A stretch of 64,000 nucleotides of DNA from Amblyomma americanum (lineage: Eukaryota; Arthropoda; Arachnida; Ixodida; Ixodidae): contig NC_135505.1 of assembly GCF_052857255.1 (NCBI RefSeq), positions 139,722,343 to 139,786,342 on the forward strand, in the 5' to 3' direction. Under the pieces are notes generated by a model. The model had not been told where the DNA came from. It was given only the letters and a program-made list of their open reading frames with translations, and made no database searches. Positions 1,969 to 56,640 of this stretch are shown here, piece after piece (the stretch's first letter is position 1; every line of letters begins with the position of its first letter). The position numbers and the translations under genes are program-made.

Positions 1969-2140
1969 GGGCTAGTTGGTTCACTGCAGAAAAAAAGTTG
2001 GTACTGCGCGAATTAGACACGACAGAACAGGAACAAACACGAACCAAACACTGCACCTGTGTTGTCGTGTTTGTTCCTGTTCTCCTGTCGTGCCTAATTC
2101 GCGCAGTATTAAACTTTTTTCTGCGGCGAATGAAGCCAAC
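1969..2140 (+). mobile_element. Hairpin (foldback) repeat with GGGCTAGTTGG leader
   Basis: The left arm (about 1974-2041) and right arm (about 2066-2140) are inverted copies: TACTGCGCGAATTAG and AACAGGAACAAACAC on the left recur reverse-complemented on the right, around a 25-nt spacer. The left side opens with GGGCTAGTTGGTT, a leader also found at the left edge of similar hairpins at 32184, 39731 and 56524. It is probably a very short inverted pair of retroelement ends; that origin is inference. Confidence 0.6.
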
Positions 2141-2622
2141 CCTCTGAATTTCACACTCCTCTGGAAAAGCAAGAAGCGCTTTGAGCGAACGCAAACTCTC
2201 GTCCCTCTTTGTTTAAAAGTACAAAATACAACAAATACTAGGAACATAAGAAGGCTGCACGAATTCCGGGCGATTAAAGGGTAACGTTTTATTTCGCTTT
2301 CCCAACTTTCGGTCCTCCGTCATTAGTGAGCATAGCGTAGACGTATTAGAACAGAAGCGTACTGGATTACCGCACGCCATCTGCGCATGCGAAGGGAGCC
2401 CTTCTGGGCCCGCCCCTGCCTCTGCGCGTGCGCATAGGAGGCGCCCGGTAATTCAGCGCACGTCTTAGGCTGGTACGTCACCGCCGCGCTAAAACTCTCA
2501 ACCGTTGTCGCCCACTCCGACCAATGTCATCGGAAAGCCGCTACCAAACCCTTGAGACCGAAAAGAAAGGAAAGCGAACCGCTACACAGATCACGGCGCC
2601 ATCTCGTGCAACGAAAACAAAC
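2141..2622. other. Downstream flank of the large minus-strand ORF
   Basis: GC-rich sequence with short open frames on both strands that overlap each other. It may be the 3' untranslated region of the minus-strand gene ending at 2623. No AATAAA signal was seen close to that stop. Confidence 0.4.
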
Positions 2623-5600
2623 TCACGGAGAGCCCAAATCGTCAGGGGGCGGCTTTGCGCCACGCTGCGTGCGGCGGCGCGGGACCAAAAGCTCTCTGAT
2701 GCGAACCGGCCCCACAGCCGAGTGCCGGGAACGCTGGGAGCCAGCTCCTCGAGGAGTGCTTGCCAGGTTGGCCTCGCGGCGGCGCAGCGGACGCCACTGC
2801 GTGGACGGCGTCGGCTGGAGCCCAGGGGATGTCGGAAGAGGTGGCCATTCACCCGTGCCCCAATGGCCGGGTGGTGACGACGGCGGCAGCGGTGGTCTAG
2901 CCGGCGGCGCGGACTCCGGCAGTGGCGGTCTCACTCCCGTCCACTCCGGTGGCGGTGAAGCCGGAGGTGGTGGCTGACTGGGTGGCGGAGACCGGGGCAG
3001 AGGCGGAGCCGTAGGCAGGGTCGGCGGTGCCGGCTGCTCACTGGGTGGCGGAGACCGCGGTGAAGCCGTAGGTAGGGTCGGCGGTGCTGCCGGCCCGGAA
3101 GGTCCCCAGAACCAGGTTTGCAAGGCGTGTTGTCCCACCTGTGGCGACCCAGATGCACCGTGGCCAGGACGCCATGCTTGCTGCGAAGGCGGCTGACACG
3201 GAATCTGCGCTCGAGGGGGCACCATCACTGAATACTGAGGCGGGCAGTAGTAACACGAATAGAATAGCGGCGTGGGCACTGGTGACGCAAGTGTGAGGCC
3301 TGGAGGCTGCACTGGTGGTTGCACAAGGGTTGGAGGAGGCACCGACGACGGCTGAGGAGGCTGCTGTGACTCTGGCTGCGCAGGCGGTGGCGGACGTGGT
3401 GGCAGCGGCGGTGGAGCCAAGGGAGGCGCGTCCCGAAGCTGAGGCGGCGGCGCCACCGAGTACGGGCGCTCGTCTTGCGGCGTCTGGGAAGAGGGCGTCT
3501 GGCCAGACTTGTTCGGCAGCTGTTGTGGCTGATGATGCGAGCCCTCTATCGGCGGCTGTGAGGAGGGCGTGCACTTCTGCTGGCGCCGGCTCAGCTGCAG
3601 CGGACATTGCGGCGCATGCCCCTGGCTGAATAATCGGCATCGCGGAGCATGGCCCTCGGAATGTGGATGAGCAGACTGTGGTGCTTGCGGACGTTCTGGA
3701 GGCACCGTTGATGATCTAGCTCGTGGCTGTACGGCCGACCGCCCACATTTGCAGTTCCCTCGACGCGGACGCTGCCCAGATGGCGCTGAGGATGCCTGCC
3801 ACTGCATCGGTCGCAAAGCGCGAGGGTCCATCCATGGCGGAGGCTGTGGCTCCGATGCTGAAGGCTCCCCTTGCTCCTGGTCTCCTGACCACACAAATTC
3901 TGACTGCCAGGGACTCAACGCATACACTGCAGGTGCAGTCTCTCCTTGCTGCTGCGTCGGCAAAAATGAGGCACAGTCTTCTTCTGTCAGCGGTTCATCC
4001 TCATATGCCAAAGCCGAGGGATCAAGTAGCTGTGCATGATACCCAAATGCAGATTCCCATTCGCTGGGCGACGGCTGTAAGGGGGCTGCTGCTCCTTGAA
4101 GCTGCGTGTGCGGTAATGAAAAATAGCTGCTTTCTTGCTCCAATGGTGCTTCAAGTTCTCCCTCCTCTTGCTCGTCTGAGTACATATATTCAGACTGCCA
4201 GGGGTCGGTCAGTGGCACCGCTAGCGCTGAATATGGCTGAAGCTGTGTCGGTGGCAACGAAAAATGGCTCGACCATTGTGGTGGCTGTGGCGTGAAAACT
4301 TGTCCTTCCTGCCCTTGCTCTCGTTCGCACAAAAATCCAGGTTCCCACGGGTAGGACGGCGGTCGACGTGGTTCAGACTCCGACTGAGCCTGCGTCTGCA
4401 GCGACGGTGGAGATTTCTGACGCTCTGCAGTCTTGGCAGACGAAGGCGGAACAGGTTGCGGCTGTGGTGTCTGTTGAGGCGGCAACGGATTCACCAGCGG
4501 CTGGCCTTCTTGCATAAGAGGTGCATTCTGCTGCACCGGTGGCAGCTGTGCCGAGGGAGGCGGTGACCCAACCTGGGGCTCTGTCACCGCGGTCGAGGAA
4601 GGGAGCACCGGTGGTCTCGGCAGCACTCCTGTTTGGGACTGCACTGACGGCGCCACTGGTGTAGGAAGGAGCGCCACACGAGCCATCTGCGGCCACTGTG
4701 GTAGTGGAACCAAGTATGCAGTTGTCGGGTACTGGGTCCCCGGCTGCTGACAGTGCAAACCTACACTCGACGGCTGTTGCGGCGAATACAGCTCTGTTGG
4801 AAAGAAGACGGGCGATGCTTCGGAAGCTGTAGAGGACGACCCACGCGTCTGCTGCGGCCACAGTTCAGGAAAACGCGCAGCGGCAGCCCCTGGCAACACA
4901 CGCGTACTTAGTCGCGCCTCTGGCGAGAGGCCGCCTCGCATTCTCGACGCGTCCCCAACAGAAGAAGCTGGAGATGAGACAACGCGGAGCGGATGGATTT
5001 GGGCTGTCGGCCGAGTCTCTGCTGCGGAGGCTTCCATCATCTCCTGCTTAAGACCACCGACCACAGTCTCACTGCTCTCCTCAACCGTACACTGCTCAAC
5101 TCCTTCTCCTGCGCCACCAAACTCTCGTCTCCTCAGATCAGATTCACACCGCCTGCCTCCAGTGTCCACGTCAAAGGCAACGGGCTCCAACTCGAACCAC
5201 GTTTCCCTCCATCTTCGAGGCTGAAGACGCGGATCACGGAGCCTTTCCATGGTAACTGCCTCAAGAGGGATCACGAGCTCCGGCAACGAATGGGCTCGCG
5301 CCAAATTTCGCCCAGAGCCTGCAATGGAGTGGAGTTGCCAGCTGCACTCCGGTCGGCTACTAGCAGTCCCGTCCTCGCCGCTTTTACCGCCATTAGGCGC
5401 ACTGTATTTGTCGCAACCAGTGTAGAAGCACGCATCCACTACACCACTGCTGGAAGCTGGATTTTCCTCGCCCACGACACTTTCGGCTGGGCACGGCTCC
5501 CCGCTGGCGCCGTTGGCCGTAGAAAGTTTTTTCTTGCGGCTCTCTTTGAAAAAGCGCAATATGAATGACATTAACTTTGCGCCCCCTGGGGCAGCCTGCC

Positions 5601-6180
5601 TTTGCGGCCGCTTGCGGGACACCGCTTCCGGCGGGGAGATTTGGAGCGAGCCGCCGCTCGTGTCAGAGGACTCGGCCTGACCGTCGACGACGCAGTGCTG
5701 GTCCAAGTCTTCTGGATTGGAATCTTCAGCAGAAACTGGAGATCGCCAGGCAGGCGGGGTCTCCGCCGGCTCGGCCGAGAATGTAGGCGACAGAAACGGC
5801 ATCTCAGCAGGCCCTAAGCGTGACCAATGCTCACAGAGTTCCGTCGTACGCTTGCTGTCAGCCCCTCTGGCGGCCGCTACGGCACCGTCTGAAACAGCCC
5901 GCGCGAGGGGCCGCTCTGGTTGCCTCTCATGCGTTCCACGGTTAAGACCGTCATGGGTGTGAAAGCGGTCAAGAGGCCCGAAGGACACCGGCTTCAGATC
6001 GGGTGCCCGGCTGAGCAAGTGCCTTTCCAGGAAGTTTCGATGATGCCTCGGATCCTGCATGTCGGCTCTCTGCGCCACCAACGGTATCGCCAAATCGGGA
6101 GCCGCGGCCGTTTCCTCGTTGGAAGGCGGACTACGACCGACGCCAGGGTCGTTGTCGTCGTCGCACGTAGGCTTAGCCAT
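2623..6180 (-). CDS. Large Pro/Gln/Ser-rich protein of unknown function
   Basis: A single uninterrupted frame of 1185 codons, much longer than any other frame in the window, so coding is very likely even though I recognise no family. The start ATGG has a G at -3. There is no signal peptide or membrane segment. The N-terminal third is acidic and Ser-rich, with a short basic stretch (KESRKKK, roughly residues 210-220) that could be a nuclear signal. Around residues 620-830 an approximately 50-residue module recurs about four times in degenerate form, carrying PWQSE, an acidic DEQEEGE-like patch and FSLPxTQLQ. The region around 860-1120 is dominated by proline (PPPLPPRPPPP type tracts), and the tail is Arg-rich. 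This indicates a mostly disordered scaffold-like protein. The GC-rich complementary strand opens several shorter frames, which I treat as shadows. Introns upstream or downstream cannot be excluded. Confidence 0.6.
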   Translation of the reverse strand: MAKPTCDDDNDPGVGRSPPSNEETAAAPDLAIPLVAQRADMQDPRHHRNFLERHLLSRAPDLKPVSFGPLDRFHTHDGLNRGTHERQPERPLARAVSDGAVAAARGADSKRTTELCEHWSRLGPAEMPFLSPTFSAEPAETPPAWRSPVSAEDSNPEDLDQHCVVDGQAESSDTSGGSLQISPPEAVSRKRPQRQAAPGGAKLMSFILRFFKESRKKKLSTANGASGEPCPAESVVGEENPASSSGVVDACFYTGCDKYSAPNGGKSGEDGTASSRPECSWQLHSIAGSGRNLARAHSLPELVIPLEAVTMERLRDPRLQPRRWRETWFELEPVAFDVDTGGRRCESDLRRREFGGAGEGVEQCTVEESSETVVGGLKQEMMEASAAETRPTAQIHPLRVVSSPASSVGDASRMRGGLSPEARLSTRVLPGAAAARFPELWPQQTRGSSSTASEASPVFFPTELYSPQQPSSVGLHCQQPGTQYPTTAYLVPLPQWPQMARVALLPTPVAPSVQSQTGVLPRPPVLPSSTAVTEPQVGSPPPSAQLPPVQQNAPLMQEGQPLVNPLPPQQTPQPQPVPPSSAKTAERQKSPPSLQTQAQSESEPRRPPSYPWEPGFLCEREQGQEGQVFTPQPPQWSSHFSLPPTQLQPYSALAVPLTDPWQSEYMYSDEQEEGELEAPLEQESSYFSLPHTQLQGAAAPLQPSPSEWESAFGYHAQLLDPSALAYEDEPLTEEDCASFLPTQQQGETAPAVYALSPWQSEFVWSGDQEQGEPSASEPQPPPWMDPRALRPMQWQASSAPSGQRPRRGNCKCGRSAVQPRARSSTVPPERPQAPQSAHPHSEGHAPRCRLFSQGHAPQCPLQLSRRQQKCTPSSQPPIEGSHHQPQQLPNKSGQTPSSQTPQDERPYSVAPPPQLRDAPPLAPPPLPPRPPPPAQPESQQPPQPSSVPPPTLVQPPVQPPGLTLASPVPTPLFYSCYYCPPQYSVMVPPRAQIPCQPPSQQAWRPGHGASGSPQVGQHALQTWFWGPSGPAAPPTLPTASPRSPPPSEQPAPPTLPTAPPLPRSPPPSQPPPPASPPPEWTGVRPPLPESAPPARPPLPPSSPPGHWGTGEWPPLPTSPGLQPTPSTQWRPLRRREANLASTPRGAGSQRSRHSAVGPVRIRELLVPRRRTQRGAKPPPDDLGSP

Positions 6181-6213
6181 ACCTCGGGCGAGAACGACGC
6201 TTCTGCCCGCAGT

Positions 6214-6453
6214 TCAACAGGCCGAAGCGTTAAAGTGAATATTCGTGCCGGACAAATGCCCGGCCAGGTTCCAGTTCTTCGCCGCAGACCTCGCGTATTT
6301 TCTACTCCGACTGAAACAATGCTTGACCACAGCCGTCGCTATGTCTTGTAGTTGACCCTGGACGCGAACAACGCGACCTCTGAGGACTTCGGGCCTGTCA
6401 CTTTCCGGTATCTCGTTGAATTCGAAGTGACGTGGCAGAAGGGTAGCTCCCAA
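6214..6453 (-). CDS. Short ORF, possible first exon of an OB-fold protein
   Basis: A 79-codon frame lying 34 bp upstream of the large minus-strand ORF. Its N-terminal half contains RGRVVRVQGQLQDIATAVV, which resembles the first beta strands of small OB-fold proteins such as the telomere CST subunit TEN1 (a family pattern of hydrophobic-R-V-x-G-x-L followed by a second strand). The second half (CFSRSRKYARSAAKNW) does not continue that fold, so if the call is right, splicing would be needed. A weak donor (TG|GTCAAG) follows the similar segment. No matching downstream exon was identified. This is a speculative call based on a short resemblance; it may equally be 5' leader sequence of the neighbouring gene. 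Confidence 0.25.
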   Translation of the reverse strand: MGATLLPRHFEFNEIPESDRPEVLRGRVVRVQGQLQDIATAVVKHCFSRSRKYARSAAKNWNLAGHLSGTNIHFNASAC

Positions 6454-7150
6454 AGAGTGAGCAGGCTAGCAAACTGTCCAATGTCCCTGAATTTCAGTGC
6501 CGTCCCTAGGTGGCGCGAGGTAACGGAAAACGCCCACTTGTTGCGTATTCTTCGGCCCCGCACACCGTAATAGTCACTGCACCGCCACTCGTTGGATTAC
6601 AGCAGAAAGCAGGGATGATTTCTACAAAAGCTTCTCCCGTCGACTTGCCAGTTTTCGTACCGCGCTTTTGCTTTTCCGGACCGGGATGGGGCGTTGGTGG
6701 GCCGCCGGGAAGGGACCCACTAATCCCGACGACGGCTTTGCCTCAGGCAGGCCGTACCGCTCGGACACGAACTGCCTCTTCTTGTGTCTGCATAAAACAA
6801 TACAAAAAAAACGAACACTGAAGCAAATGTCTTTAGAAGACTAGTACTTTCTTCGGACTCCATCAGACAGCGGTAAAAGAGCAGAAAAAAATACACGTAG
6901 CCGAATTAGCTTGACGGGTCTATAAAGCAACACGAATAATAGTGTTATCCTTTACGCATCTTTTTACAGTTCGGCAAAACCCCGGTGTTTGTAAACCAAC
7001 AAACCCGTGTACTATGAACCCAATATAAATAGGGCTTTTCGTTTTCTGGGTGTATTTTTTTTTCGGAACTCGAGGTAAAATCGGGCCACACGTTTTTTCG
7101 TTCAAATCCGGGTATAAATCGGATTATGCGAAAGCATTAAATGGCTATGA
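6454..7150. other. Intergenic DNA, no supported gene
   Basis: Small open frames without domain signatures. The region is GC-rich up to about 6800 and then AT-rich. Confidence 0.5.
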
Positions 7151-9770: not shown

Positions 9771-9775
9771 TGGGT

Positions 9776-20769: not shown

Positions 20770-20880
20770 GCTCGAGGATCAAATCCTCCGAGGGGGGCCT
20801 GGTGTCAAAAGACTTCAATGCTAGCATCTGCTTTGAAGTCTTTTGACACCAGGCCCCTCTCGGAGGATTTGATCCTCGGC
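20770..20880. repeat. Near-perfect palindrome at LINE 5' junction
   Basis: Arms of about 48 bp (20771-20818 and 20831-20878) are inverted copies with a 12-nt spacer (CTAGCATCTGCT). The right arm is the LINE coding end (KSFDTRPLSEDLIL frame) and the left arm is the same codons inverted. Confidence 0.85.
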
Positions 20881-29264: not shown

Positions 29265-29277
29265 CAGACATCTGCAT

Positions 29278-29551
29278 TCGAACACAACTCAAGAACGAAG
29301 CGGCAGCTGCCCCTCAAAGGAAGTCCCTCCAGCCGATGGTGTCGACTGTTTTTCATGATGCGCCCTGGTTATTCCGATTAAACGTGGTAGATCTCATTCG
29401 ATTTCTCACCCTTACGATGCCATATGCTAGCATATCCGAGGGGATTATATAACAATTAAATATAACATCATGAGAATCGGTCGACACCATTGGCTGGAGA
29501 GCCTATACTTTGAGAGGCATCTGCCTTTTTTCCCGAGTTGTATCGGAATAT
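29278..29551. mobile_element. Foldback/MITE-like element with about 80-bp inverted arms
   Basis: Left arm 29278-29360 and right arm 29466-29551 are diverged inverted copies: CCAGCCGATGGTGTCGAC pairs with GTCGACACCATTGGCTGG, and CATGATG with CATCATG. The centre is about 105 bp and non-coding. A single diverged arm of the same family lies at 51141-51225. Confidence 0.65.
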
Positions 29552-29601
29552 AGCTGATGCAAGAATTCAGCGAAAACAGTTGGATTTACCCTTGATGATT
29601 A

Positions 29602-30480: not shown

Positions 30481-32183
30481 CAGGGGAGTGCAATGTCTGG
30501 TGGACAGAGCTTCTGAATGGTGATTCTTGCATCAGTATGCCTTACCACCGACTGAAGCTTAATTTAACTCCGAGGTGTGGATGGTTGTGGTGCGCCTTTT
30601 ACAGCACTAACTATTAGCTGGACTTCAGGTGAAACCTTTTAATCTGGCCAAAATGCAAGCCTTGGTCTTTTGTCACATCAGAACACTTGGCAGGAAACTC
30701 GTGGTGCACCGTCACTCAACCACTCGCTGTGGTGGTAAAGAAGGTGAGTCGCTCAAAGCACACTAGGATAAGTTTCACGAATAATTCGGTTAATAATCCT
30801 TCACTCCCTCTTGAAGAACGTTAAAATGCCAGTAAAAATTGCACATTCCCAATCTAATTCCCACTTCTGAAGTATACGCATATTGTACCTTTTATACTTG
30901 AGAACTTTTAATCTGATGATTATGATTATGGATTTTTATGGCGTAAGGGCATCTATAGCCAAAGAGCGCCATGGCAGAAGGTGTTTTCGTCTTCTCAAGG
31001 TGGAAATTTGAAAGTTTTTGCCCTTCTTATCCCCATTGAAATAGCCGCTGCTATTGGCAGCACTATGCAAAAACAAATAAATAAAACAAAGTGCCAACTG
31101 CTGCATACAGTGGTGCTGTGTACAATGCGGCAGCGAAACTTAATTCTAGAAAAAGAACATTATCGCAAAATTCGTATCGGACATCTGGAAGCCCTAGTCT
31201 AAGATAAAATTGCTTATGTAAAGCTTCTGAATGCAATCAATCTTAAGAGGACTGCAGTGCTCAGAAATTTTTTTTCAGAGCCATATTCCTTCACATCGAA
31301 AAAATGACTATGCGGCGACAAGGAAAGACGGATGAAGGATGCTTTATTCTGCTTGGTGCATAGAAGAACAGGAAAACCGTCACGTTTATATCATTGTCTG
31401 ATGCATTTTCTGGTGACAGCACTTCATACATTATATTCGTTGCAAGTTGCAAAAATACAAACATGAATAGTATATGCAAAGTGCTTGTAGTTAATGTTAT
31501 GATATTATATATTCTTCCATTAAAAAAAACATTTTTTGCATTTTGTTTCTTTTCATGCGCCCTATTTTATTAGCGGCTTAATACAAACCCGGGAAATGAG
31601 GATCCCTCCTATTCCTCTAACACAAAATTGACCCTCAGGATACAAAATTGACCCTCAGGATATTCGGTTCTTCGTCTGGCATATTTGACGTTGTTTTAGA
31701 GGTGCTCCGTAATCCTCAAGAAATGCCACTTAGATGTGCTATTCATGCATTAAGGAAAACAATGTTGTTACACTTTAATCAGTTCTAAACGAGCAATCTG
31801 AAAACTGCAATTTTTTTACGAAAAAGCTTCTACTAGTTACTAAACTTTTTCTGCACCGTGTATTCAAAGTGCTGGTACAATGAACTGTTGTTAGGTTAAC
31901 TACCTTAATCAAAACTCCAAGCTTATAGTGGCCCATCCTTTTGACCCATAAACCTGAACTGTAATAAAATGCTCTTCTTAACTCTGGCTCTTCATGATTC
32001 AAACAAATGCTGGGTTCCCATAGAGTTTGCATTCTGGACAGTCAATTGTGTTTCCTGTTTCCGGGAATACACATAGTATTAAGGTCATTTATATCTCAAA
32101 ACCTGATCGAAAATCAGGAACAGAATGGCCTTCATTAACATCAGAAACGCAAATTTAAAAGTGCCTTTACTAAGATGAGTTTT
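30481..32183. other. Intergenic DNA, no supported gene
   Basis: AT-rich. A 20-bp direct tandem (ACAAAATTGACCCTCAGGAT) occurs near 31622-31661. Short frames lack domain signatures. Confidence 0.5.
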
Positions 32184-32340
32184 GGGCAAGTTGGTTGCTC
32201 AGCTTTGACATAACTGCAGCACGAAAAAAGACGAACACAATGGAAAGAACACACATGAACACACAGCAATAGTCTGTGTCGTGTGTGCTCCTTCCATTGT
32301 GTTCATCTTTTTTCGCGCGGCAGTTATGTCGAAGTTAAAA
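32184..32340 (+). mobile_element. Hairpin repeat with GGGCAAGTTGG leader
   Basis: Left arm from 32204 (TTTGACATAACTGCAGCACG, then AAAAAAGACGAACACAATGG) pairs with 32281-32334 (CCATTGTGTTCATCTTTTTT, CGCGCGGCAGTTATGTCGAA). The leader GGGCAAGTTGGTTG precedes the left arm, as in the hairpins at 1969, 39731 and 56524. Confidence 0.65.
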
Positions 32341-33539
32341 TCGCCTGTTCCTCCATGTTTTGCAGCAATTTTTTCACACAGTCTATGTGGCTGAGTAGAG
32401 GCCTTGTTGAGATATCGCTGTTGTCGTAAATACACAGGAACCCAAAGGCCGACGACCAGGATATGATCGTTCCTAAGTCCGCAGTGACCCCTTGGTTGCA
32501 TAAGTTGTCAGCTGAAAAGTGTTATTCTGAACATGCCTACTGCACAGTCGCCACGTCGCAAGGGATCTACTTATTTCTGAAAGTACTTCGTGGCAGTTAT
32601 GAAATCTTGTAATCTTCGTCCTTTAAGATAATGTGGCCAGTTACTACCACATTTGCTTCAAATGAAATATGCGGCGAAATTGCAGCTCATTTCCCAGACC
32701 ACTCGTGACGCTTATGACTAGCACTAAACCAGGCGGCTTGCTTGGTGACGTCAAAACCATGTGCTAATCTCACTGGCCACGTCTCAGTTCAGCTCGTCAC
32801 ATCAGCGTGTACAGGTCAAAGCAGTATCAAAGGGAGCACCTAATATCCACGTTAACAACGAATCATTCCGCGGTGTGAGTGAGAAGAACCAACTGGTTTT
32901 TACTTAGCACTTCCACTCTGAAAGATTAAGAAGGCTACAACCTTCTCTCAGGTTTCATGCAAGAATAAAACTAAAACTGGGGCCGTATTCTGTAACGTTT
33001 TATTCGTTTCCATTTCATTTGACTCTCTGCCATTATTCGCTGATCCCTGTGACGTAGGCTGTGAAGGATGATGCCACGCTAGTGGTGGTAGAAATACACC
33101 GATAATGCCACTCACACTCCTTATGCACATGCGCACTGGTGAACCAGCGAAGAATGACAGAACTTGATGCACCTGACGCACAAAGAAGCTTCACCGGCAC
33201 CAGCTTTATTGTTGTTTAAAGGTGGCTGCAGAGCTATGCGGTGCCTGTAAGCACGAGTCGCCAGAACATGGTCCTTCCGACAAGGCCGGACTAGATGTGT
33301 CAGCACTGCAGCCAGACCTGCCGTGTCTATGGCTGATCATTTGCTTCTGCACTTCTTGTTGCTTTTGTCACGGTTGACATCGCAAGCAAACTAAAACACA
33401 ATAAAATGTCCCAAAATATGGCCCTGGCTCTTGAGTCGCAACATTTCCGCTACCTGTCCTTGTCCACCGTTAGTTACTCTTTATATCCACTCCTATATTG
33501 CCTCTCTCTTGAGTGGAGTTGATGCAGACACCTGGAGAC
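32341..33539. other. Intergenic DNA; single DNA-transposon end
   Basis: GGGGCCGTATTCTGTAACG at 32979 resembles the terminus of the 14070-15378 element. No matching opposite end was found. No gene. Confidence 0.45.
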
Positions 33540-39082: not shown

Positions 39083-39730
39083 GTACGTATGCATAAGTGT
39101 TGTCTTGACATCACAGCTGCAACGTGATTATTGAAACCTCTGCCAGATGTTATGGAACGGTCTCAGACAACCTCCAATTTCTCGTCTTCTTTTTTTGAAG
39201 GAGCGAACACAGTATAAAAGGCAACACTCGGTTATCAATACTCAGACTTGTTTTTCCGCTTTCTCTTCGAACTTCAATTTGCAAGACATGCGCCAAACTT
39301 TCCTTGTATAAGAAAACGGCCGTTCTGCCCATTGAGGAAGCAGTTATTAGCCTTTCTCCTCTCTCCTTTTGCAGTTCGTTTCAGATTTGATATTTTTTAT
39401 TATGTCTGTACAAACATGTGCTCTGTGTGCGCGAGTGTGTGCCTTTTGTGCTGTTTTTCATCCCAAAAAAAAGTTGCACATATCAGGTTCTTTATGTTTT
39501 ATGTGAATCTTTAATATTTTCACGAGAATGCAGAATAACTGCTTAAAAGCACAAAAAGCCGTTTTCTGACATACTATGGCCACAAATTAGAGAATATCAC
39601 TACTCAGATGTCTCCTCTCTTTTCAAACCGGACTGCGCATTCAGTACTTTTCTGGGCATATAGCAATCGATTTATCTCTATCATGATACTAGCACTGCTT
39701 CTGGTTGTTGTTCACTGTAGTAGGATGGAA

Positions 39731-39864
39731 AGTTGGGCTAGTTGGGTTACGTTCATCTTAAAGAAAAAATACAGCACGAACAAAGACGACGGACGAAGAA
39801 GAGGTGTACAACACCTCTTCTTCGTCCGTCATCTCTGTTCGCGCTGTATTTTTCCTTTAAAATG
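39731..39864 (+). mobile_element. Hairpin repeat with GGGCTAGTTGG leader
   Basis: Leader AAGTTGGGCTAGTTGGG precedes nearly perfect arms 39754-39809 and 39810-39864 (TACAGCACGAACAAAGACGA; GACGAAGAAGAGGTGT against its complement) with almost no loop. Inside intron 2 of the lipocalin gene. Confidence 0.7.
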
Positions 39865-40689
39865 TTGTTGTTCACCTCAGTAAACTTCTGGTGAGCCTCC
39901 GTACTTCGTTTTCTGTGACTGAAAGTTTCCTAGAATTATAAACTAATCTTAGAAAATCAATAATTTATACTCTAATGTAAAGGCAGTGCACTGAAACAAG
40001 AAGAAGAACGATTATGTGCATGATGCAGGATTCTAATGGCATTTTGCAATTGTTCGCTTCTTTCATCGTTTCCAAGGTATTAGCGTAATCTTTCGGACTC
40101 AGTGATGTTGCTTTGAGAGAGCACCTCACTGATATGTCATAATATTTCAGACACTCCGTTATTGAAAAGATAAAAGCCGTAAGGACAAATGGTTCAAGAA
40201 CGCCCAATGCTTTCCAATACGAACTTGGAGGTATGTACAACAATATACTCCGCTACCCAGAAGAAACTCTGGGAAGGACCATATGCTACGATAACACTGC
40301 ACGCTTTCTGAACACTCTGCTGCTCGCTGGTATTCTTGTCTGAAAATCACGCCGCAAGATAATCACTGTCGGTCGTGAGTTCTTATGAGCGCCCTGAAGT
40401 CAGGAAATTAGTATTCATGCTGATATTTAACAATTGGGTTAGCTGAGGAACTCGGAGTCGAGAACAACTTGTGCCGAGCTATACTCAATTTCAGTGGACA
40501 GCGACAAGCATTCCGAGAAAGCCAGAGCCAACTGGGAGTTGTTATTGTTGGCCTCCGTTAAAACGGTGCATACTCGCGGTGAAGGATTGTCCAGGATTCG
40601 ATGCAACCAAAAACGCAGCTTGCATGCGCATACAGCAGGGTTGTCTTCGTTCTAGAGATTGAATCATCCAAAACTGTTCACCTTCTCAG

Positions 40690-43700: not shown

Positions 43701-43706
43701 TGAGCA

Positions 43707-44062: not shown

Positions 44063-44125
44063 GCACGCACGCACACGCACGAACGTGCGCGCGCGCGCAC
44101 ACACACACACACGCACACACACACA
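44063..44125. repeat. CA/CG microsatellite at the PLE boundary
   Basis: Imperfect ACGCAC, GCGCGC and (CA)n tract that ends where the left Penelope-like copy begins. Confidence 0.9.
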
Positions 44126-44126
44126 T

Positions 44127-45345
44127 AGTGGAAGCGGTCTGCATTGCTCAAGGGGCCAGTGAAAACTTGAACAATGAAATAGTCACACACAACTGATACT
44201 ATTATCTTGGTTTATTTACCAACTGTTTCGGGTGGTGGACTGTCCTTCATCAGGGTTAAAGTTGAATGAATACAGATATCTGCGTATTTACAGAACTGAA
44301 TGTAGAGGGAAAGGAGGAACTCTATTTCTTTTCTTTGAGGAGAAAAACATACACACACATCACGGAGTAACAGGCAAGAGTGCTGCCGTCTATTAGGGGA
44401 AAAGAACAGGGCTGTAAAAGAAAAGTTAAAAAACAGAGGTATCAGACATGTAGCCGAGGTGGAGAGGGGTGTTTTTGCCGAGAAGACGCAAGCAAGAAAG
44501 GTTTCTTTCGGCGGAAGAGAGAAGTTCGAACACAAGGAAACAAAACAATAAAAAACAATGAAAAAAGCGGAAAAAAACAAGAAAAGAACAAGACTAGACT
44601 GAAACAGAACACAACAGTGCACACAGCATGACCCGCTCCCCAGCGGTGCTGGTGTTGAGGACTCTTGGAATGTAATTTACGGTAAGCTGTCAAGACAGCT
44701 TCATTTCGCACTGCTCAAGAGACACCAGCGACCGTTACGATGGCAGCGTGTCGCCTCAGCGGCGGAAAAGCGGTCATCCAGACGCCGTGCGAAAACCCGA
44801 TCCCGCAACGGGGCGCTTCAGAGACCAACCACTAGCCGTTCGTCAGAGGGTGCCTCCGCTGTGCGTCCCACTGCGGACAATTCCGAGAAGGGGGCCAAAA
44901 GGACAAGGAGGAAAAGGAGGAAGGGAAGGGGGCCATGGTGAGCTTAATAAAAAAAATAAATGAAAAATCACCAATGGGAGCTTCTTTCGCGTCTTTCAGT
45001 TAGATAGGTTTTTGAGGAAAGCAAAATTGCTCAAGTTCTGATTGATGCCATGAGTTAATGTTCCAATTATGTGTATGAAATAGAACTCTTTGTTCTCTTT
45101 GGCGGCTTGTTTAAAAGCCTGACTGAAGGAGGACGACCCGAATGCTTTCGAATGTATGTTGTGGCAGACATAGGTGCTTAGAAAAGGGCAGGCTTGGCAG
45201 TGCGTGAATGTAGGCCTTGTGGTTGTTGAATCGCAAGCTGAACGGAGTTTCTGTCTGGCCAATGTATTGCATGCCGCACACACCGCAATGAAGCATGTAG
45301 ACCACATTTGCACTGTCGCAATTTAGAGTTTCTTTGACTGTGAGA
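44127..45345 (-). mobile_element. Penelope-like element, left copy of a head-to-head pair
   Basis: 5'-truncated PLE. The minus strand encodes a GIY-YIG endonuclease segment at 45305-45111 (YMLHCGVCGMQYIGQTETPF), with conserved CxxC, Y-IG and RFNNH residues. A stop follows at GF-stop, and the rest of the C-terminus (ENKEFYFIHIIGTLTHGINQ) continues in another frame. The roughly 800-bp tail contains CCTGATGAAGGACAGTCC and CCGAAACAGTTGG near its end. The tail region also opens AT-rich frames (44212-44622) that I regard as noncoding. The endonuclease of intact PLEs nicks the target for reverse transcription; this copy lacks the reverse transcriptase. Confidence 0.8.
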
Positions 45346-45399
45346 GCAAAGTCAGAGAAGGTATCTTTCTCTAAAAGGTACCTTCTCTGACTTTAGGTA

Positions 45400-47714
<2,315 letters not shown>

Positions 47715-48024: not shown

Positions 48025-48084
48025 CTTTCTGCAAGCAGCAAAATAAAAAATTCAAAGCTGATTCACGTGAGTGTCGCAATACAC

Positions 48085-49022: not shown

Positions 49023-49112
49023 CCGTCTTGTGATGTCAGGTGTACACACCTAGCAGGTTGTCCACAACCCGGTGGGCCGTCTGCCACAAAGCAGGCTTCA
49101 GGGGCATACAGT

Positions 49113-49328
49113 CGTCCACAGACCTATCTAGAGCGCTCGAAATCCGTCTCCTCTGCGCTCTGCAGTACGCAGAGCGACGTATAGCGGCAGAGCCTGGATC
49201 GAGATAGCGAATCTGTGAGTATGGTCTGAGCAGCATCTCGAACCAGGCGCCACCGCTAGATGTCGCTCTGCGCACTGCAGAGCGCAGACGGCACAGAGTT
49301 CGAGCACTCTAGATAGATCTGTGAACGA
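49113..49328. mobile_element. Foldback element with about 90-bp arms
   Basis: 49115-49209 and about 49235-49328 are inverted copies: TCTATCTAGAGTGCTCGAA and TCTGCGCTCTGCAGT, then CGCAGAGCGACxTxTAGCGG in each arm. The centre is about 25 bp. Short palindrome GCTCTGCAGTxCGCAGAGC inside each arm. Confidence 0.7.
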
Positions 49329-50093
49329 CGTACGTACATACGCACAAAAATCATAAAATGCGTTTAGTAGAGCTACCGCACAAAAAAATTTAGTTGGTGA
49401 ACACGACTGCAATTGTACTATGTCATAAGTGGGGCAAATGAAACTAAATGGAAATCGACCGTCAAAAAAGTACCCCCTCGGTGAACACTGCGATCTTCAC
49501 TGAACTAAATTCAGTTGACAGTCCAGCGTCGTCCTGTGTGTTTCTCCATCTTTCTGCTGTTTTTAGTTGATTAAGAAACTATCCTGATCGAGTTGCGAGA
49601 GCGGCACGTGGATGCCACTGTAGGCCGACTTCCGTTCCGGGAATCCTGCAGCCTAGAGGACAGGCAGCTGTGGTTCCGGCGCCTGGTGCGGAATGGTGTA
49701 GAGTGACTGCGAGGGCAGGGGCCAGGTGCGGGAAGGACGCCACCGCCTTTCGGACATCAACGCCCTGTTTGAGTGGAGCAGTGTGTTCCCCCCTAAAAAA
49801 AGAGGCAGCTTGCCTTCCCGGTCTCCGACCCTTTGTCTCAATACACTCAAAATGTTAATATCCTGTATAAATAGTTTCTCTAGTTTCCCCCTAAACACCG
49901 ACCGCAACTCCTCATTCCTGCTCCAGACCCTGTCCACGCCACTTATGAGTTCCAACAACTGGCAGCAGTTCTGGGATGATGGACACGTCAGTCACCGGCT
50001 TCAAAGGACCATGGCAGCAAAGGGACTGACAGCCACAATAAGCTACCCTTGTAGGGTGAATGCCTGAGATTGAACTTGCATTTGGTATGGTGC
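49329..50093. other. No confident gene; open stretch at 49726-50066
   Basis: A 113-codon plus-strand frame reads protein-like in parts (LISCINSFSSFPLNTDRNSS, then WQQFWDDGHVSHRLQRTM), but it starts without context and earlier codons are broken by stops. It may be a decayed coding sequence upstream of the exon at 50670; no family was recognised. Confidence 0.3.
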
Positions 50094-50802: not shown

Positions 50803-51140
50803 TTGCAGTTCGCAAAGAGGGAAAAAAATTGCGGGCGGTTCAGCTTGGGGCTAATTGCGAATTATCCCTGGTCTTACATGGTTTATGTTGATTTTCTATA
50901 GCACTATTTGATTTTAAATGGCTTACCCTGGTTGATAAATAATATGATGGAAGTTTAGGTGATATTGCATCATTTTAGATTTGTGCTACAGTAGAAGTGG
51001 TCGTTCTCTTCTAGCCCCATCCAGCCAATGACATCAGGTGATTTCCACAAACCTGCTAGCGTGAGCAGCGTGATAATGCAAGAAGGAGACTATCCCCTTT
51101 CGTCTGCCACTACCAGCTGCATTGTAATGCTAGCAGGTTC

Positions 51141-51225
51141 ATGAGATTCAGCCGACGCCATTAGCTGGAAGGGGGTCCTTTGTTGGGGAAAAGCCGCTTC
51201 TTTCTTTACTTGTATCAAACTATTG
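51141..51225. mobile_element. Single arm of the foldback family seen at 29278
   Basis: CATGAGATTCAGCCGACGCCATTAGCTGGA corresponds to the right arm at 29470 (CATGAGAATCGGTCGACACC, ATTGGCTGGA), with further loose agreement up to CTTGTATC. Confidence 0.5.
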
Positions 51226-51261
51226 CCTCGGAGACGCACAGTTGGCAGTATATGTACGAAC

Positions 51262-51267
51262 TTTAAT
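51262..51267 (-). promoter_or_regulatory. Possible poly(A) signal of the zinc-finger gene
   Basis: ATTAAA on the minus strand, about 130 bp after the stop at 51397. Confidence 0.4.
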
Positions 51268-51396
51268 ACAAATATAAAATAATCTTCATTTCTAGTTTGC
51301 CTGCAAGTCTTCTTCCTCAGCGGAAAGTTACTGTCCCCCGTGAGCCTCTCTCTCGTGGTGCATTGTGTGGCCACTCTGCGAAAGCTTCTTTCCACT

Positions 51397-51784
51397 TCAA
51401 AAGTAGGCGAAGGGTTTCTTAGCAATGTGGGTCTGCAGGTGCCTGGTAAAGTGACGCCTGTAGGCATACACCCTTCCGCAATCGGGACACACGTGCGGTG
51501 ATGATGGGTACCCATCACCCGTCGTGTGCAACTTGCGGTGACGAGCCAGGTTAGACGCATCTGCGAAGCGCTGGTCGCAGTCGGCGCATTTGTACGGCCT
51601 CTCCCCCGTGTGGACCACCAAGTGCCGGTTAAGATTCTCCAGCTGCGTGAATGCTTTCTTGCAGAATTCGCACACGAAGGGCCGCTCGCCTGTGTGCGTT
51701 CTCTGGTGTCTGGTGACATTGGCCCTGCGTCGGATGTGGATAAAGAAAGGAGGGCAGTGGTTACACTGGGCACTGGCATCACCA
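51397..51784 (-). CDS. C2H2 zinc-finger protein, last exon
   Basis: After acceptor TTTGTCATCAG the frame reads GDASAQCNHC and continues through four to five C2H2 fingers: a first finger with a long spacer (CNHC...RHQRTH), VCEFCKKAFTQLENLNRHLVVH, KCADCDQRFADASNLARHRKLH and VCPDCGRVYAYRRHFTRHLQ-TH, ending KKPFAYF-stop. TGERPF/Y linkers join the first three, and an 11-residue loop precedes the last. Such tandem fingers bind DNA in the nucleus as transcription factors. Entry in phase 2 matches the donor of the exon at 54888, and 58764-58890 also joins in phase, giving 226 codons in the three exons. Upstream exons lie beyond or were not recognised. Confidence 0.82.
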
Positions 51785-52502
51785 CTGATGACAAACAGAT
51801 TAATGACAAAAAAACCTGCAGTCTCTCAAGTCGTCGAGGGTATAAGTAAGCAAGAAATGCTTTGCAGTACCGGCGTAGCACTCTCTCGGATGGGCTATGG
51901 ATGGTGCTAGCTGCATTCTTGAAATAGGCCTTGGCTTCTGTTACCGACTTCGCTCAAGCACAGAAGCCAGAGACTTATGCGCTCATCAGTCATTGGCACT
52001 GGCTTGTAAGCTTACTGTGTCCTTAGTCAAAACTGAACCTCATTTAAGGTCTCACCCCAACCAGACACAACCATAATATAGCTGCAGTGCCGCTGGGGCC
52101 CAAGAGCACGCACCTCTAACCAAACACCTCATTTTTGTCGTCCTCGCTTTATTTAAGCATGCCCCATGTCTGTTTCTTGTTTAACCCCAAGTTAGCGCAC
52201 ACACAAATGCAACCTTAACATCTATGCCACTTCCACGCTGGCGAGAGTCGCGGCTTGCGAGAGATGAGGTGATGGGATAGCTGTAGCATGCACTGCGCTA
52301 CACGCTGCTATCAGCAATACAGATATTCGCCGTGATTTCAGAGCACCTGAAAGGGCAAGCCAGTTCCTTCAGAGTGCGCCAAGCTGCATACCATTTGGGC
52401 GGAAAATTTCGCGAAGTTCACTTCAGGTTTGGCGTCTTGTCCTCCTTTCGGTTCACATGACTCCCGGATAGTGTTCGCTTCAGTTTTCCGAGAACAGGAA
52501 CT

Positions 52503-52743
52503 GGTTTGGTTTATGGTTTATGGGGGTTTAACGTCCCAAAGCGACTCAGGCTATGAGAGACGCCGTAGTGAAGGGCTCCGGAAATTTCGACCACCTGGGG
52601 TTCTTTAACGTGCACTGACATCGCACAGCACACGGGCCTCTAGAATTTCGCCTCCATCGAAATTCGACCGCCGCGGCCGGGATCGAACCCGCGTCTTTCG
52701 GGCCAGCAGCCGAGCGCCATAACCACTCAGCCACCGCGGCGGC
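52503..52743 (-). mobile_element. tRNA-derived SINE, family B, complete
   Basis: Reverse copy with intact A box (GTGGCTGAGTGGTTATGGCG) and B box (GGTTCGATCCC), and 3' end TTAAACCCCCATAAACCATA. Flanked by near-identical AGAACAGGAACTG (52491-52503) and AGAAAAGGAGCTG (52744-52756), probably an aged target duplication. Lies in an intron of the zinc-finger gene. Confidence 0.9.
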
Positions 52744-52756
52744 AGAAAAGGAGCTG

Positions 52757-54187
52757 AAAGCATTTCGTGCTTAAAAATGAGGACTGCAATGTACCACTTG
52801 CTGTGGTGCTGATGTGTAGGGGAACTAAGGACTGCCTGAAGCAAGGAAGACACGACGGCTATGGATTCAGGGTCGCTGAATTCTGCGACCCTGCAATGGC
52901 TACTAGACGTTGTCTTTAAATGGAACACTATTCCACTGTCCCTCACAAGCCCAATCATCCACAAAGGTGCTACCCCAGTGTGCTGTCCCGTGGGCACACT
53001 CCTATTCCTGACTACAGAAGAGGCCATACTGCTGAGGTTAAGAAAGCAACTTGGAAGCCCATGCGTGCTTTCGGTCCCACTTAGCTCTGTTCCTTGTTGT
53101 GGCACAGAATGTCCCATTTATTCAAGGACTGAGATTGAATGAAAATTCGTCTGTTCAGGAAATGGAAGTTGGATACAAGATCGGCACTCATAAGTCAAGC
53201 TCTTGTACAATGTTTCAGAACCCATAAAGGTTCCAAAATGTCATAAAGGTTCCAAAATGTCCTACTACAGCCCAACTTGGTCAATGACTAAATCTTCAAT
53301 GAAACCCAAAATGTCACCATAGCTGAGGGTAATTTGAGTTTTCACAGAGCATCTAAAAATAATTTTTGACAGGCCACTTCCACAGTTAACCACCATTTAA
53401 CTTGAAATTGTTGAAGTTATCACCAGTAACCTATATACCACTTTCACAAGTTCTTTTATAATGTCTTTATTTAAGACTGGTTTCTTGCATACTATGCCTT
53501 GATAAACAAATTCTCACAAGCTCAGCTGGACTATAAAGGCCTCAAAACTATTTGTAGCATGGAGACACAAACAGACACCAAAGCTATTTAGACAAGACGA
53601 ACATGATACACAATGCACATTGGACCTGGATGAAAAAAAAAAGCCTTTTGGACATCACTAGAACCAATTAACAGCTTCTGGGCTTAGCAAATGAAAGCTT
53701 CAACCACTAACAAACACCAAAAATTTCTAAACTTTTTTGAATAATAAGAATGGCCTTTGCATAATGTGTCATTAATAGCGCGGTCATTTCAAGTTATGAA
53801 ATGCTTACCGTTAGGAAGCAGTAATGGAGTAAAGTGGCAATGTCCAGGACTGCTGGTCAAAGTACACAACTTCCGAAATTACTCCATGCCCAAACCACTT
53901 TACACATACCTAATTTACATACTTCCAAACTTTCCACATCAACAGCTATAGATGGGACCTTCTTCGGGATAAAAAGTGCTGGCTGTGTTATATTTCATAA
54001 CTGAGTTCTACACTATCCTTCGTGCCAGAAGGAATGTTATCTGGATGGACTTGGGCTGTGATGTTGGTGGGGGGAGTGGGAGCATGCGAGCAATTTGAAA
54101 TGCCACTCCATTCATTTGCAACTGCAGTTTTTAATGGACCATGAGCAAAAAATCCCTCCTGAGCGAAATGTAGCCACTGCCCCAACA
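52757..54187. other. Zinc-finger gene intron, no feature recognised
   Basis: A hairpin with perfect 9-bp arms (CAGGGTCGC ... GCGACCCTG) lies at 52867-52892. A 93-codon frame at 52861-53142 has no domain. The remainder is AT-rich. Confidence 0.45.
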
Positions 54188-54315
54188 AAATTGAAAAGGA
54201 AATGGTGCAGTAACTGTCTCACATATATTGGTGGACACCCGAACCGGTTTTTAGGAAAGGAAATGGCATAGTAACTGACTCCCATATATCGGTGGACACC
54301 CGAAGCGCCCTGTAA
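54188..54315 (-). mobile_element. Two SINE family A tails in tandem
   Basis: The 3' part of family A (GGTGTCCACCAATATATGTG AGACAGTTACTGCACCATTT region) occurs twice in direct order on the minus strand, 54188-54245 and 54246-54315, with nothing between. An internal duplication or two insertions at one site. Confidence 0.75.
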
Positions 54316-54339
54316 GAGGTTTGACCTCTGGCTCATTTG

Positions 54340-54790
54340 AAGGCCAAAATTATCCCCTCCCACTGGTCTCGTTCTCGTTCGGGTGCACTGGGGCCGTGTG
54401 GGCACACAGGAATCACGCCGTGAGTGGTGAACAACGCAGCACATCCAAGGCGCGTTCAACACGAAGCTTGCGGCTTGCTGCCCGTTTGTTCCGCGCGGAA
54501 GCTATGCTGGCGTTCGTGGCATCGGGTTTGTCGAGAACAATGTGCCAACGAACTACGACTGCAGCTTGAGTCCCGCGCGTTTCGGCAAGGCGCCTGGCAG
54601 CGCTTCTACGTGGTTTGCCGCTCCGCGCGTCCGTTTCACCGTACGTAGCAGAGCGATTTGTCTAACGGGCAAGGCGTCACGCCGAACGGGCGATGGCGTT
54701 CCGTGGACTCCCTAGCAGTGCTGCCACACGCTGTCACATTCCACTCTTAAAGGCAAAGCTTAAGCCTCCTCCAATTTTTATCTTGCATCT
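54340..54790 (-). repeat. GC-rich repeat, possible family E copy 3
   Basis: Ends, on the plus strand, in ACTCTTAAAGGCAAAGCTTAAGCC, the inverted form of the family E opening motif. The body is GC-rich and has several short frames without support. Confidence 0.3.
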
Positions 54791-54887
54791 CCCATCTCTC
54801 ATTCTAGAACTGCCTATGTAGCTGTAAAACCTATGTAGCTGGAGGCATGCATAACGCGCTGGCAACAGTGATCAGATGCTGGCTTAC

Positions 54888-55053
54888 TTGTCATCGCTGG
54901 AGAAAGGGCAGTAGATACAGCAGTGCCTTCCCGGTGGCCCCTGGGGGTGCTCGCGCTGCCGGTGCTTGCCCAGAGAGTCTCGCGTAGAGAACAGCTGGCT
55001 GCATGCCTCGCAGGAGAACATCACGCCCAGGATTGACATCCCATTTTCAACCT
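54888..55053 (-). CDS. C2H2 zinc-finger protein, middle exon
   Basis: Acceptor TTCTGTTTGCTGTCAG, frame (E)VENGMSILGVMFSCEACS and a full finger CEACSQLFSTRDSLGKHRQREH (H-x4-H), then CCIYCPFSSDD. The donor GACAA|GTAAGC leaves phase 2 and cuts the protein just after the second C-x2-C pair, which matches entry into 51784. Without splicing a TAA follows at once. An alternative acceptor two bases downstream would give phase 0 entry. Confidence 0.7.
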
Positions 55054-55141
55054 CTGACAGCAAACAGAAAAGAGAACACATCGTCAGGGAAACTATTACT
55101 CTGCAGAACTTTCAGCTTAGTCAAAAGAACCAGGGAGAATG

Positions 55142-55210
55142 GTAGACACTACAAGCGCTGTAGTGTCTACATCGCTTGTGGTATCTACAGTGCTTGTAGT
55201 GTCTACCCCT
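55142..55210. repeat. GTAGACACTACAAGC palindromic cluster
   Basis: GTAGACACTACA and its complement TGTAGTGTCTAC flank AGCGC; two more GTAGTGTCTAC/TGGTATCTAC pieces follow. A small compound palindrome. Confidence 0.7.
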
Positions 55211-56517
55211 CTCCTTTGTCTGTGTGAGCTGGTTTTTGTTTTCAAGATCAACTACATCCAACCAGCCCAAACCACCATTTCCTGCAACAGAGCTTTCAAC
55301 ACAGCATAGACATCACAAGCACAAGGCAAGAGACAAAGTGCAATAGTTTTCCACCTGCCTTGCTCCTGCTTTTCGCTCTGTGTTGTTTGGCAGCAAGACA
55401 TATCCCTGCATATCACATATTAGTTATAACAATAGCAGCAAGGCTACATGCTGTTACAAATAGCATGCCTTTATCCCTATTTGCAAAGTGCTACATAAAC
55501 GAGCACAGAAAACTACACAAATGGGACTTGCTTTACATCAAACAGTCATTTTCTTTTCGTATTACACATATGTACACATATGCACAGCCTGTACAATGCA
55601 AACTGAGAAAAGCACAAATCAAGTCCGTGTTACAAAAGACGTTTTGCCTGTCAGTGGGATTTTCCCCATGTTGCTGACAGTGCAAATGAAATACCAACTG
55701 TAGGGTTCTTTTCCACAGCCAAGTGCCTCAGATGATTTGCTGGATATAAGCAAGCGTACGTACACATCGCATCCTTTTATGGAGTCGATAAGGCTAGGAC
55801 TATTATACACGCTTCAACAGCTTTTTTGAAGTTGTACGACACTCCGTGCACGTATGGTATAACCTCAGGCTTCCGACATCTCTGTCTGGCCGCTCATTTT
55901 TTAATTCCTTTCAAGTCTTCTAGTAACATCTGAGTAACAGCAATAAAGACATTGCAAGAAAACCCTGCCGAATGTTGCCACGAAATTTCATGTACAAAGC
56001 TTGCCTGCACATTGTCAGCACAGAACTTCTGCAAAGTACAGATTCAAGGAAGGGGTGTGCAATTACTAGTTTCATGGTTAAACTGGCTTAGCGATATGGA
56101 AGTAGTTCCTGTGCACAAGGTGAATAAAACTAAAAAACTATGGTCCTCGAACAGAAACATACACTCTAAATTATTTATCAGAAATACAGATTTGCCATGC
56201 ATGCTAACCATTTTTGGGAGAGTTTAAGGGTCCCTTTTTAAGAGAAAAAGTGCCATGACCCTCTCCTGGTTGAACGAGTAAAATGCAAACATTTAGACAA
56301 CAGTTGTGCATCCTCCTTCATGGTATCCACAAAGACCATCATGAGAGGGGTAGCAGAACTCCGACTGAACTAACAGTCATGAAACAGTCAGATAACTTCT
56401 GAGGAGAGCATCACCTAACTCCTTCACAAGTACCAGCCAACACTCAACAATAGTTACCTGCCTATCATGAAAGTGCGAGATGGTCGCTGAAGTGAGAGTC
56501 CGGCAACTCTCACGAAC
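55211..56517. other. Zinc-finger gene intron, no feature recognised
   Basis: AT-rich, with short frames and no domain or repeat family recognised. Confidence 0.45.
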
Positions 56518-56640
56518 GGAAAGTTGGGCTAGTTGGTTCGTACATGGCATAGTTACAACAGCCCAAAAGACAAGAGACAAAAGAGAATGTTGTCTTTCCT
56601 TTTCCTTTCATCCATCGTCCTTTGCAGTGTTGTAACTCCC
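56518..56640 (+). mobile_element. Hairpin repeat with GGGCTAGTTGG leader, diverged
   Basis: Leader GGAAAGTTGGGCTAGTTGGT is nearly the same as at 39727. AGTTACAACAGCCCAAAAGAC pairs loosely with GTCCTTTGCAGTGTTGTAACT on the right. Same layout as the hairpins at 1969, 32184 and 39731. Confidence 0.5.

Follow-up and report, generated by a model that had tools for sequence, protein, structure and literature searches.

Are the short hairpins in this stretch of the Amblyomma americanum genome extremely truncated insertions of Penelope-like elements (PLEs), or do they form a foldback family of their own? The window, that is, the whole stretch of 64,000 nucleotides analysed (NC_135505.1, 139,722,343 to 139,786,342, forward strand), had been described in an earlier note as holding four such hairpins with a common leader on the same side. 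All four were found at the places given there, each with an exact GGGC(T/A)AGTTGG on its left. At up to one mismatch, this motif occurs six times in the window, compared with 1.98 ± 1.25 times in dinucleotide shuffles, and 0 of 100 shuffles reached six. The inverted arms were strong in three of the hairpins (self-palindromes of 156 columns at 81% in h1, 133 columns at 83% in h2 and 111 columns at 88% in h3) and weak in the fourth (h4: 87 columns, 62%, E = 0.002). The leader lies on the same side in these four, but a fifth copy (h5), absent from the earlier note, sits on the minus strand; because of this copy, the common side is the polarity of the element itself, not that of the window strand. 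A one-mismatch match at 58749 looks like a chance occurrence, with no hairpin there in the palindrome scan.

The first hairpin, h1 (1956–2125, plus strand), has its tail on the left (leader, 1969–1979) and two inverted arms (self-palindrome, 1980–2130), and is bounded by a perfect target duplication, GCGAATGAAGC (1945–1955 and 2126–2136; 11/11, a score equalled in 0.85% of random placements). The minus-strand reading of its right end, GGGTTGGCTTCATTCGC, was considered as a second leader and rejected, since it contains this 11-bp duplication. In h2 (32167–32331, plus strand), the arms lie at 32203–32258 and 32279–32334 (88% identity), the reverse-complemented tail is MSKLSNQLAQNSS, and the candidate target duplication (32152–32166 and 32332–32346) is weak (12/15; 7.8% of the null). 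The bounds of h3 (39716–39863, plus strand; arms at 39754–39807 and 39811–39864, 91%) were again set by a target duplication, GTTGTTGTTCAC (39704–39715 and 39864–39875; 12/12, 0.6% of the null). Its reverse-complemented tail translates as MNVTQLAQLSI, and a protein search with the ORF running through h3 gave no matches. The eroded h4 (56518–56637, plus strand, with the left bound taken from the earlier note) has arms within 56551–56637 (62%), a reverse-complemented tail reading MPCTNQLAQLSV and no convincing target duplication (14% of the null). The additional hairpin h5 (55115–55287, minus strand) carries the leader GGGCTGGTTGG at 55258–55268, inverted arms at 55129–55219 and a 10/11 target duplication (55104–55114 and 55288–55298; 3.2% of the null). 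In a control for these duplications, one of 20 cross-locus pairs scored 23, similar to the best real pairs in the window (22 and 24). The arms of h1 to h5 are A-poor, not A-free (3–7 A per 41–55 nt). At the window edge lies a longer head-to-head PLE remnant (62658–64000, no strand assigned), whose right end may fall beyond the window. It comprises an inverted repeat (62659–63032 and 63624–64000, 88%), holds the end sequence of what the earlier note had called the second PLE family, and includes an endonuclease-region frame on the minus strand (62810–63148) with 56–79% identity to 149 other scored genome matches.

GGGCTAGTTGG, taken on the opposite strand, is where a PLE ORF begins. The long PLE ORFs of the same genome (809 and 811 a.a.; Pfam RVT_1, E = 1.7e-13 and 8.2e-14) start with MYQLAQLS or MYQLAQTT directly after a short leader. 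The tails of h2 to h4 read M..QLAQ.., and that of h5 resembles the MYQLAQTT family, with a BLAST E value of 1.1e-5 against the ORF start of the long element L078. The two arms are copies, placed head to head, of the element's short 5′ leader, just upstream of the ORF start. Because the conserved motif is the ORF start and the arms are the 5′ leader preceding it, the one-sided motif is the known PLE tail, an extension of 30–40 bp at one end. As the earlier note had proposed to check, the arms extend into longer PLE copies: PLE ORF sequence was reached in 13 of 54 loci in the predicted orientation, antisense on the tail side (e.g., L019, L028, L034 and L046), sense on the non-tail side (L033 and L102) or on both sides (L030 and L049), the ORF homology being 35–50% in amino acids. 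Among the genome copies read, none was a complete PLE that had both this exact tail and an intact ORF. The family is assigned from the ORF homology together with the tail; the identity of the element is nearly certain, and the hairpins are almost certainly tiny, heavily shortened PLE insertions.

Direct and inverted copies of the pLTR were seen in related long elements, as distinct from a complete copy of the leader family: L078 contains three copies of the leader-ORF start sequence, two direct and one inverted, and L073 and L075 have two direct copies each. Pfam gave no GIY-YIG match, and a VY...YIGQTG stretch, a putative GIY-YIG motif, was kept in all three aligned C-termini; a structure model of the endonuclease region had a pLDDT of 31, too low for use. 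A hammerhead ribozyme search of the window and nine loci, six of them with long PLE copies, gave no match at E ≤ 5. Many PLEs, not all, carry this ribozyme in the pLTR, and its absence was not taken to exclude membership.

Genome-wide copies share a consensus beyond the leader, a point on which the earlier note had made its idea depend. The 19-mer AAAGTTGGGCTAGTTGGTT has 297 exact genome matches versus 0 for the reversed control (and no exact match in IMG/VR), and the 14-mer TTGGGCTAGTTGGT has 7,393 versus 5. In a leader-selected set of 55 leader copies in 54 loci, most copies share the tail, the ORF start and the arm; L024, L026, L099 and L102 have little in common beyond the tail, or align poorly. 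An inverted repeat was present on the expected side of the leader in 23 of 41 copies and on the wrong side in one (L019, 23 bp, weak). Some insertions have unequal arms (L029, L030, L033, L047 and L102) or a single arm (L020–L023 and L042). The 14 places on C3 that were fetched afterwards agree with the PLE reading: five are hairpins of the compact type, all flanked by duplications with scores of 19–28, and the rest comprise long copies, single-arm copies and L099, a 69% match without a hairpin.

A second set was picked irrespective of the tail and comprised all 38 genome places with one exact 20-nt hairpin centre; these have a zero-loop centre by construction. The inserts measure 124–175 bp (n = 38); 35 of the 38 have a tail at one end only (binomial against 0.5, p = 3e-8), two have one at both ends and, by the threshold used, one has none. 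With L118 and L119 merged, the one-tail count is 34/37. The tail ends at ORF nt 30–42 in all copies except L128, and in 32/38 the far end maps to ORF nt −3 to +14. In the leader-selected set, both ends were seen in 20 events, and the far outer end of 19 of these lies at the start codon (ref 33–46; 18 placed by BLAST and L097 by eye). Target duplications above the 99% null, mostly 10–15 bp and variable in length, flank 31 of the 38 centre-selected places and 12 of the 21 leader-selected events tested, including the low-complexity L031 and L038. In none of the three two-tail insertions (L048, L109 and L123) did the target duplication exceed the 99% null of the respective test.

The 5′ boundary of the tail-side copy is clustered. 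In a table filled in by hand from BLAST ends, a few of them estimated by eye, the 43 leader-selected events divide into 15 with this copy ending at the self-complementary AGCGCT (ref 90–103), 13 with an end below 90, none with an end at 104–250 and 15 with an end beyond 250. The position of the AGCGCT may perhaps be the RNA 5′ end of the element. An RNA 5′ end does not account for the 13 boundaries below 90, which would have to stem from premature stops, deletions or a variant with a shorter leader.

The hairpin structure, the tail corresponding to the ORF start, its presence at one end, the target duplications and the clustered 5′ boundary were observed directly, and we infer that the hairpins are probably minimal PLE insertions made by two separately primed cDNAs joined head to head. 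By this mechanism, the element protein would nick both target strands a few bases apart, and each free 3′ end would prime reverse transcription inside the element RNA near the ORF start, at two adjacent start sites, one per target strand. The first cDNA would begin about 30–42 nt into the ORF and leave the tail; the second would begin at about the start codon and leave none. Both would copy the short, A-poor 5′ leader as far as the RNA 5′ end, at or near AGCGCT, where their 3′ ends would pair or be joined head to head, to yield a hairpin of about 150 bp between target duplications of mostly 10–15 bp. A longer tandem or read-through RNA template may give rise to the long head-to-head PLE copies by the same process. 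A stricter version, to which we assign slightly less than an even chance, is that the two internal start sites form an obligate pair, one per strand, as for an asymmetric protein dimer, that the cDNAs join through the AGCGCT RNA 5′ end, and that hairpins arise from single-unit mRNAs and long copies only from tandem or read-through RNAs.

A single cDNA could also produce such an insert, by starting at the tail, reaching the RNA 5′ end, folding back and self-priming a second arm that stops near the start codon. This snap-back is a simple account of equal arms with a single tail, and the available part of PMC3846280 attributes the palindromes at PLE inverted junctions to self-priming. We nevertheless regard it as unlikely, since insertions with unequal arms exist and it offers no reason for the second arm to end at the start codon in 19/20 events. 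In addition, the arms of L031 differ by an insertion variant that L035 and L037 also carry in their tail-side arms, although a later mutation is possible. A single strand cannot snap back at the AGCGCT centre, which has no loop, since hairpin loops need about 3 nt. The exact 20-nt centre common to 38 places might instead suggest a non-autonomous family driven by PLEs, with the entire hairpin serving as the transcribed and re-inserted unit. However, two leader copies meeting at AGCGCT would also give a common centre, and the arm lengths and junctions vary, with single-arm and long/short combinations in the leader-selected sample, making this possibility rather improbable.

Hairpin RNA or microRNA genes are a highly improbable source. 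Rfam searches of the window and nine loci returned mostly microRNA-shaped matches below the gathering scores, plus tRNA matches, and h2 and h3 resemble microRNA precursors in shape; the arms, however, agree between loci only as element sequence and bear insertion signatures. The available part of PMC9611014 lists a 20-nt small RNA from R. microplus eggs, m0027, that starts with TGGGCTAGTTGGT, as the leader does, but is antisense to the ORF start, as expected of a transposon-silencing RNA, and is one of six novel miRNAs with RT-qPCR inconsistent with sequencing. Some of the hairpin copies may still be processed into small RNAs. The chance of a foldback or MITE-type DNA transposon with inverted termini, the distinct, undescribed family suggested in the earlier note, is negligible: the hairpins resemble such elements as short inverted-repeat insertions with target duplications, but equal ends were tested for and the ends were found to differ by the 30–40 bp tail in 35/38, the duplication length is variable instead of fixed, arms can be unequal or single, and the longer copies, the parent, are retroelements. 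Its other suggestion, extremely truncated head-to-head PLE insertions, is supported by the leader as the ORF start, the ORF found in longer copies and the target duplications.

Two-cDNA priming fits what has been reported for other PLEs. Frangieh et al. (2024; PMC11167929) found that a purified PLE protein from Anolis (PAc) cuts and extends both strands, starting inside its RNA, with one start site 111–118 nt into the ORF and the tail being the stretch between two start sites; later integration steps are, by their account, still to be validated. The tick copies likewise point to two adjacent internal starts early in the ORF with the tail between them, but these would lie close to the start codon and at ORF nt 30–42, and the copies differ from PAc in that no hammerhead ribozyme was found. 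Moreover, no start-site difference between strands was seen in vitro, whereas the genome copies show, near-strictly, one start site per end. Known PLEs, as described in PMC11167929 and the available part of PMC3846280, also have head-to-head inverted ends, target duplications, palindromes at inverted junctions and a tail of about 30–40 bp at one end, into the ORF start; the earlier note did not recognise its one-sided leader as this tail. Unlike those, the tick insert consists of the leader and start codon region only, without the ORF, with an AGCGCT junction and a near-strict one-tail pairing counted across copies.

Taken together, the element is of a known kind and its minimal form is new, the whole insert being the leader and start codon region. 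Among the literature matches listed, represented by listings and the beginnings of abstracts, neither hairpins this minimal nor the present tick family were described, which does not imply that no description exists. These hairpins, which are numerous, flanked by target duplications and short enough to be read whole, bear on how head-to-head PLE copies arise and why the tail sits at one end: they provide position-level evidence on where the cDNAs start, where the template ends and how tails are paired. If the obligate-pair reading is true, a single mechanism would suffice for the head-to-head copies, for the tail at one end and for tiny copies being so abundant. The finding explains tick hairpins that could be mistaken for microRNA genes or foldback transposons, as records of how a poorly understood class of elements, the PLEs, inserts itself.

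The four hairpins of the window described in the earlier note (h1–h4, at 1969-2140, 32184-32340, 39731-39864 and 56518-56640) all exist, each with an exact GGGC(T/A)AGTTGG leader at its left, and the minus strand carries a fifth copy (h5) at 55104-55298. A search of the window with a profile made from the left halves of all five recovered these copies together with the opposite arm of each of h1, h2 and h3, and all remaining matches had E > 1. In the h5 loop (55129-55219), as read by eye, an ~18-bp unit (GTAGACACTACAAGC..) is present about three times, an internal expansion of the hairpin. Four strong hairpins without the leader (20773-20878, 49111-49329, 29269-29556 and 51015-51174) are probably other element types, and a 2.5-kb near-perfect inverted repeat (44125-46654; 91%), whose end adjoins a (TA)n run, had no BLAST match to the hairpins. 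Repeats in the window resemble the tick SINE Ruka and, with the small-RNA match described below, suggest a hard tick.

On the opposite strand, the leader looks like a protein start when translated: MSKLSNQLAQNSS in h2, MNVTQLAQLSI in h3 and MPCTNQLAQLSV in h4. The ATG has been altered in h1 and h5, but their frames still give VNQLARKNF and INYIQPAQTT, respectively. An endonuclease-region query from the longer Penelope-like element (PLE) remnant of the window (62658-64000) gave 150 scored genome matches, one of them itself, among 47,198 first-look candidates, and several of these sit in open frames of 821-858 codons. Among 20 regions fetched around such matches there are complete ORFs that begin MYQLAQLSVLLKF and MYQLAQTTILLQF and follow a leader rich in T, C and G; both complete ORFs examined contain a reverse transcriptase domain, and GIY-YIG was seen solely as a conserved stretch. 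These starts, and the leader preceding them, identify the hairpin leader as the PLE ORF start; the complete ORFs belong to related copies, and none of those seen has precisely this start. The arms are the PLE leader immediately upstream. Against a database of only five PLE ORF-start regions, BLAST E values were 7e-5 (h1), 0.01 (h2), 1e-6 (h3), 4e-7 (h4) and 1e-5 (h5). No hammerhead was found in the window or in nine loci. The PLE origin, one of two readings proposed in the earlier note, is correct, with the shared leader accounted for as the ORF start.

The leader also matches an entry in a Rhipicephalus microplus small-RNA list, m0027 (TGGGCTAGTTGGTATGGCAT), given as a 'novel miRNA' from eggs in Table 3 of PMC9611014. 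m0027 is antisense to a PLE-like ORF start (leader strand, e.g. window 56525-56551), and may therefore be not a microRNA but a small RNA that silences transposons.

An exact 19-mer of the leader occurs 297 times in the 2.56-Gb genome. We fetched 54 regions holding 55 of these copies, comprising, among the matches listed, the first 20 on contig C1, 20 regions of C2 that contain 21 copies, and each of the 14 on C3. Merging duplicates by flank comparison in the first 40 regions (L013-L018 with L025; L020-L023; L043-L044; L026 with L040 and L040b) left 43 events. In these 40 regions, an inverted repeat lay on the element side of 23 of 41 leaders and, weakly, on the other side of one. In 13/54 loci the sequence fetched is homologous to the PLE ORF, in antisense on the side of the tail (the leader itself, an extension of 30-40 bp at one end) or in sense on the far side; this count is an underestimate because 14/54 fetched stretches have only 401 bases; these directions match the prediction of a head-to-head structure. 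An exact 14-mer of the leader has 7,393 copies, a count that includes a tandem array and overlooks diverged copies (e.g., four of the five hairpins of the window). In the array, outside the window (G000:C1:13136762-13205248), the 14-mer recurs about every 1,291 bp across at least 68 kb, so that a PLE tail appears to be incorporated in a tandem repeat. Tandem leader insertions that share one short target sequence (ACTAGAAATAACAC-like; read by eye) in L040 (G000:C2:115838700-115840700) and L011 suggest repeated insertion next to an existing copy.

Boundaries were entered by hand from BLAST ends in the coordinates of copy L049 (tail start, 1-11; start codon, 40-42; palindrome AGCGCT, 94-99). The far end, where visible, fell at 33-46 in 19/20 events; in the other, L048, it includes the tail. 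On the tail side, the copy ended at 90-103 in 15/43 events (including L099, which aligns at 69% only), earlier in 13, at 104-250 in none and past 250 in 15. L020-L023 was entered as 99 (BLAST end 106, within the target duplication), the L026/L040/L040b group once, with the 85 of L040b (L040 alone, 99; L026, 37), and the outer end of L097 as 46 by eye (BLAST end 67). The empty stretch between 103 and 250 suggests that AGCGCT is a hard template end for one RNA class, the other having a long template. All five reference copies compared have, upstream of the ORF start, an AATAAAC..TTCAGTTG..AGT(C)AGCGCT block or a sequence close to it, and AGCGCT is exact in three of them; the AGCGCT site may accordingly mark where a transcript begins, where an RNA ends, or both.

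Since sampling should not favor tails, we also fetched all 38 places with the exact hairpin centre AAAGACGAGCGCTCGTCTTT, at least two of which are in the leader sample (L111 = L039, L112 = L050). By set thresholds, 33/38 had one tailed end and one start-codon end; L127 and L140 had a tail and a short arm, L109 and L123 a tail at each end, and L128 no tail, its longer end reaching ORF nt 16. A single tail was thus present in 35/38 (34/37 once L118 and L119 were merged; p = 3e-8 versus the half expected with independent ends). In 32/38 the far end lay between ORF nt -3 and +14, and its placement at nt 22 in L113 is probably a chance extension. Inserts were 124-175 bp, and target duplications exceeded the 99% null in 31/38; both two-tail copies are among the other seven.

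The hairpin structure belongs to a known kind. As far as our searches of an incomplete literature collection can tell, what is new is the minimal form, the one-tail pairing with its counts and the clustering at the template end. To account for the data, two reverse-transcription starts ~35 nt apart, one per end, are needed, together with a common template end. PMC3846280 describes the one-sided PLE tail, an optional feature, and palindromes at inverted junctions, and proposes self-priming. Self-priming meets a difficulty in the zero-loop AGCGCT centre, which is hard to make by fold-back. For this reason, and because unequal or single arms occur and the second arm ends at a start site, we favor the joining of two cDNAs, which would be made one from each target strand and meet at their self-complementary end. 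For an Anolis PLE protein, Frangieh et al. (PMC11167929) reported that both strands are cut and extended and that synthesis initiates inside the RNA of the element, in the early part of the ORF, the tail being the stretch that separates two start sites. With initiation so near the beginning of the first ORF, we infer that a single-unit mRNA would yield only ~60-100 nt of leader, and that long copies would require another unit downstream.
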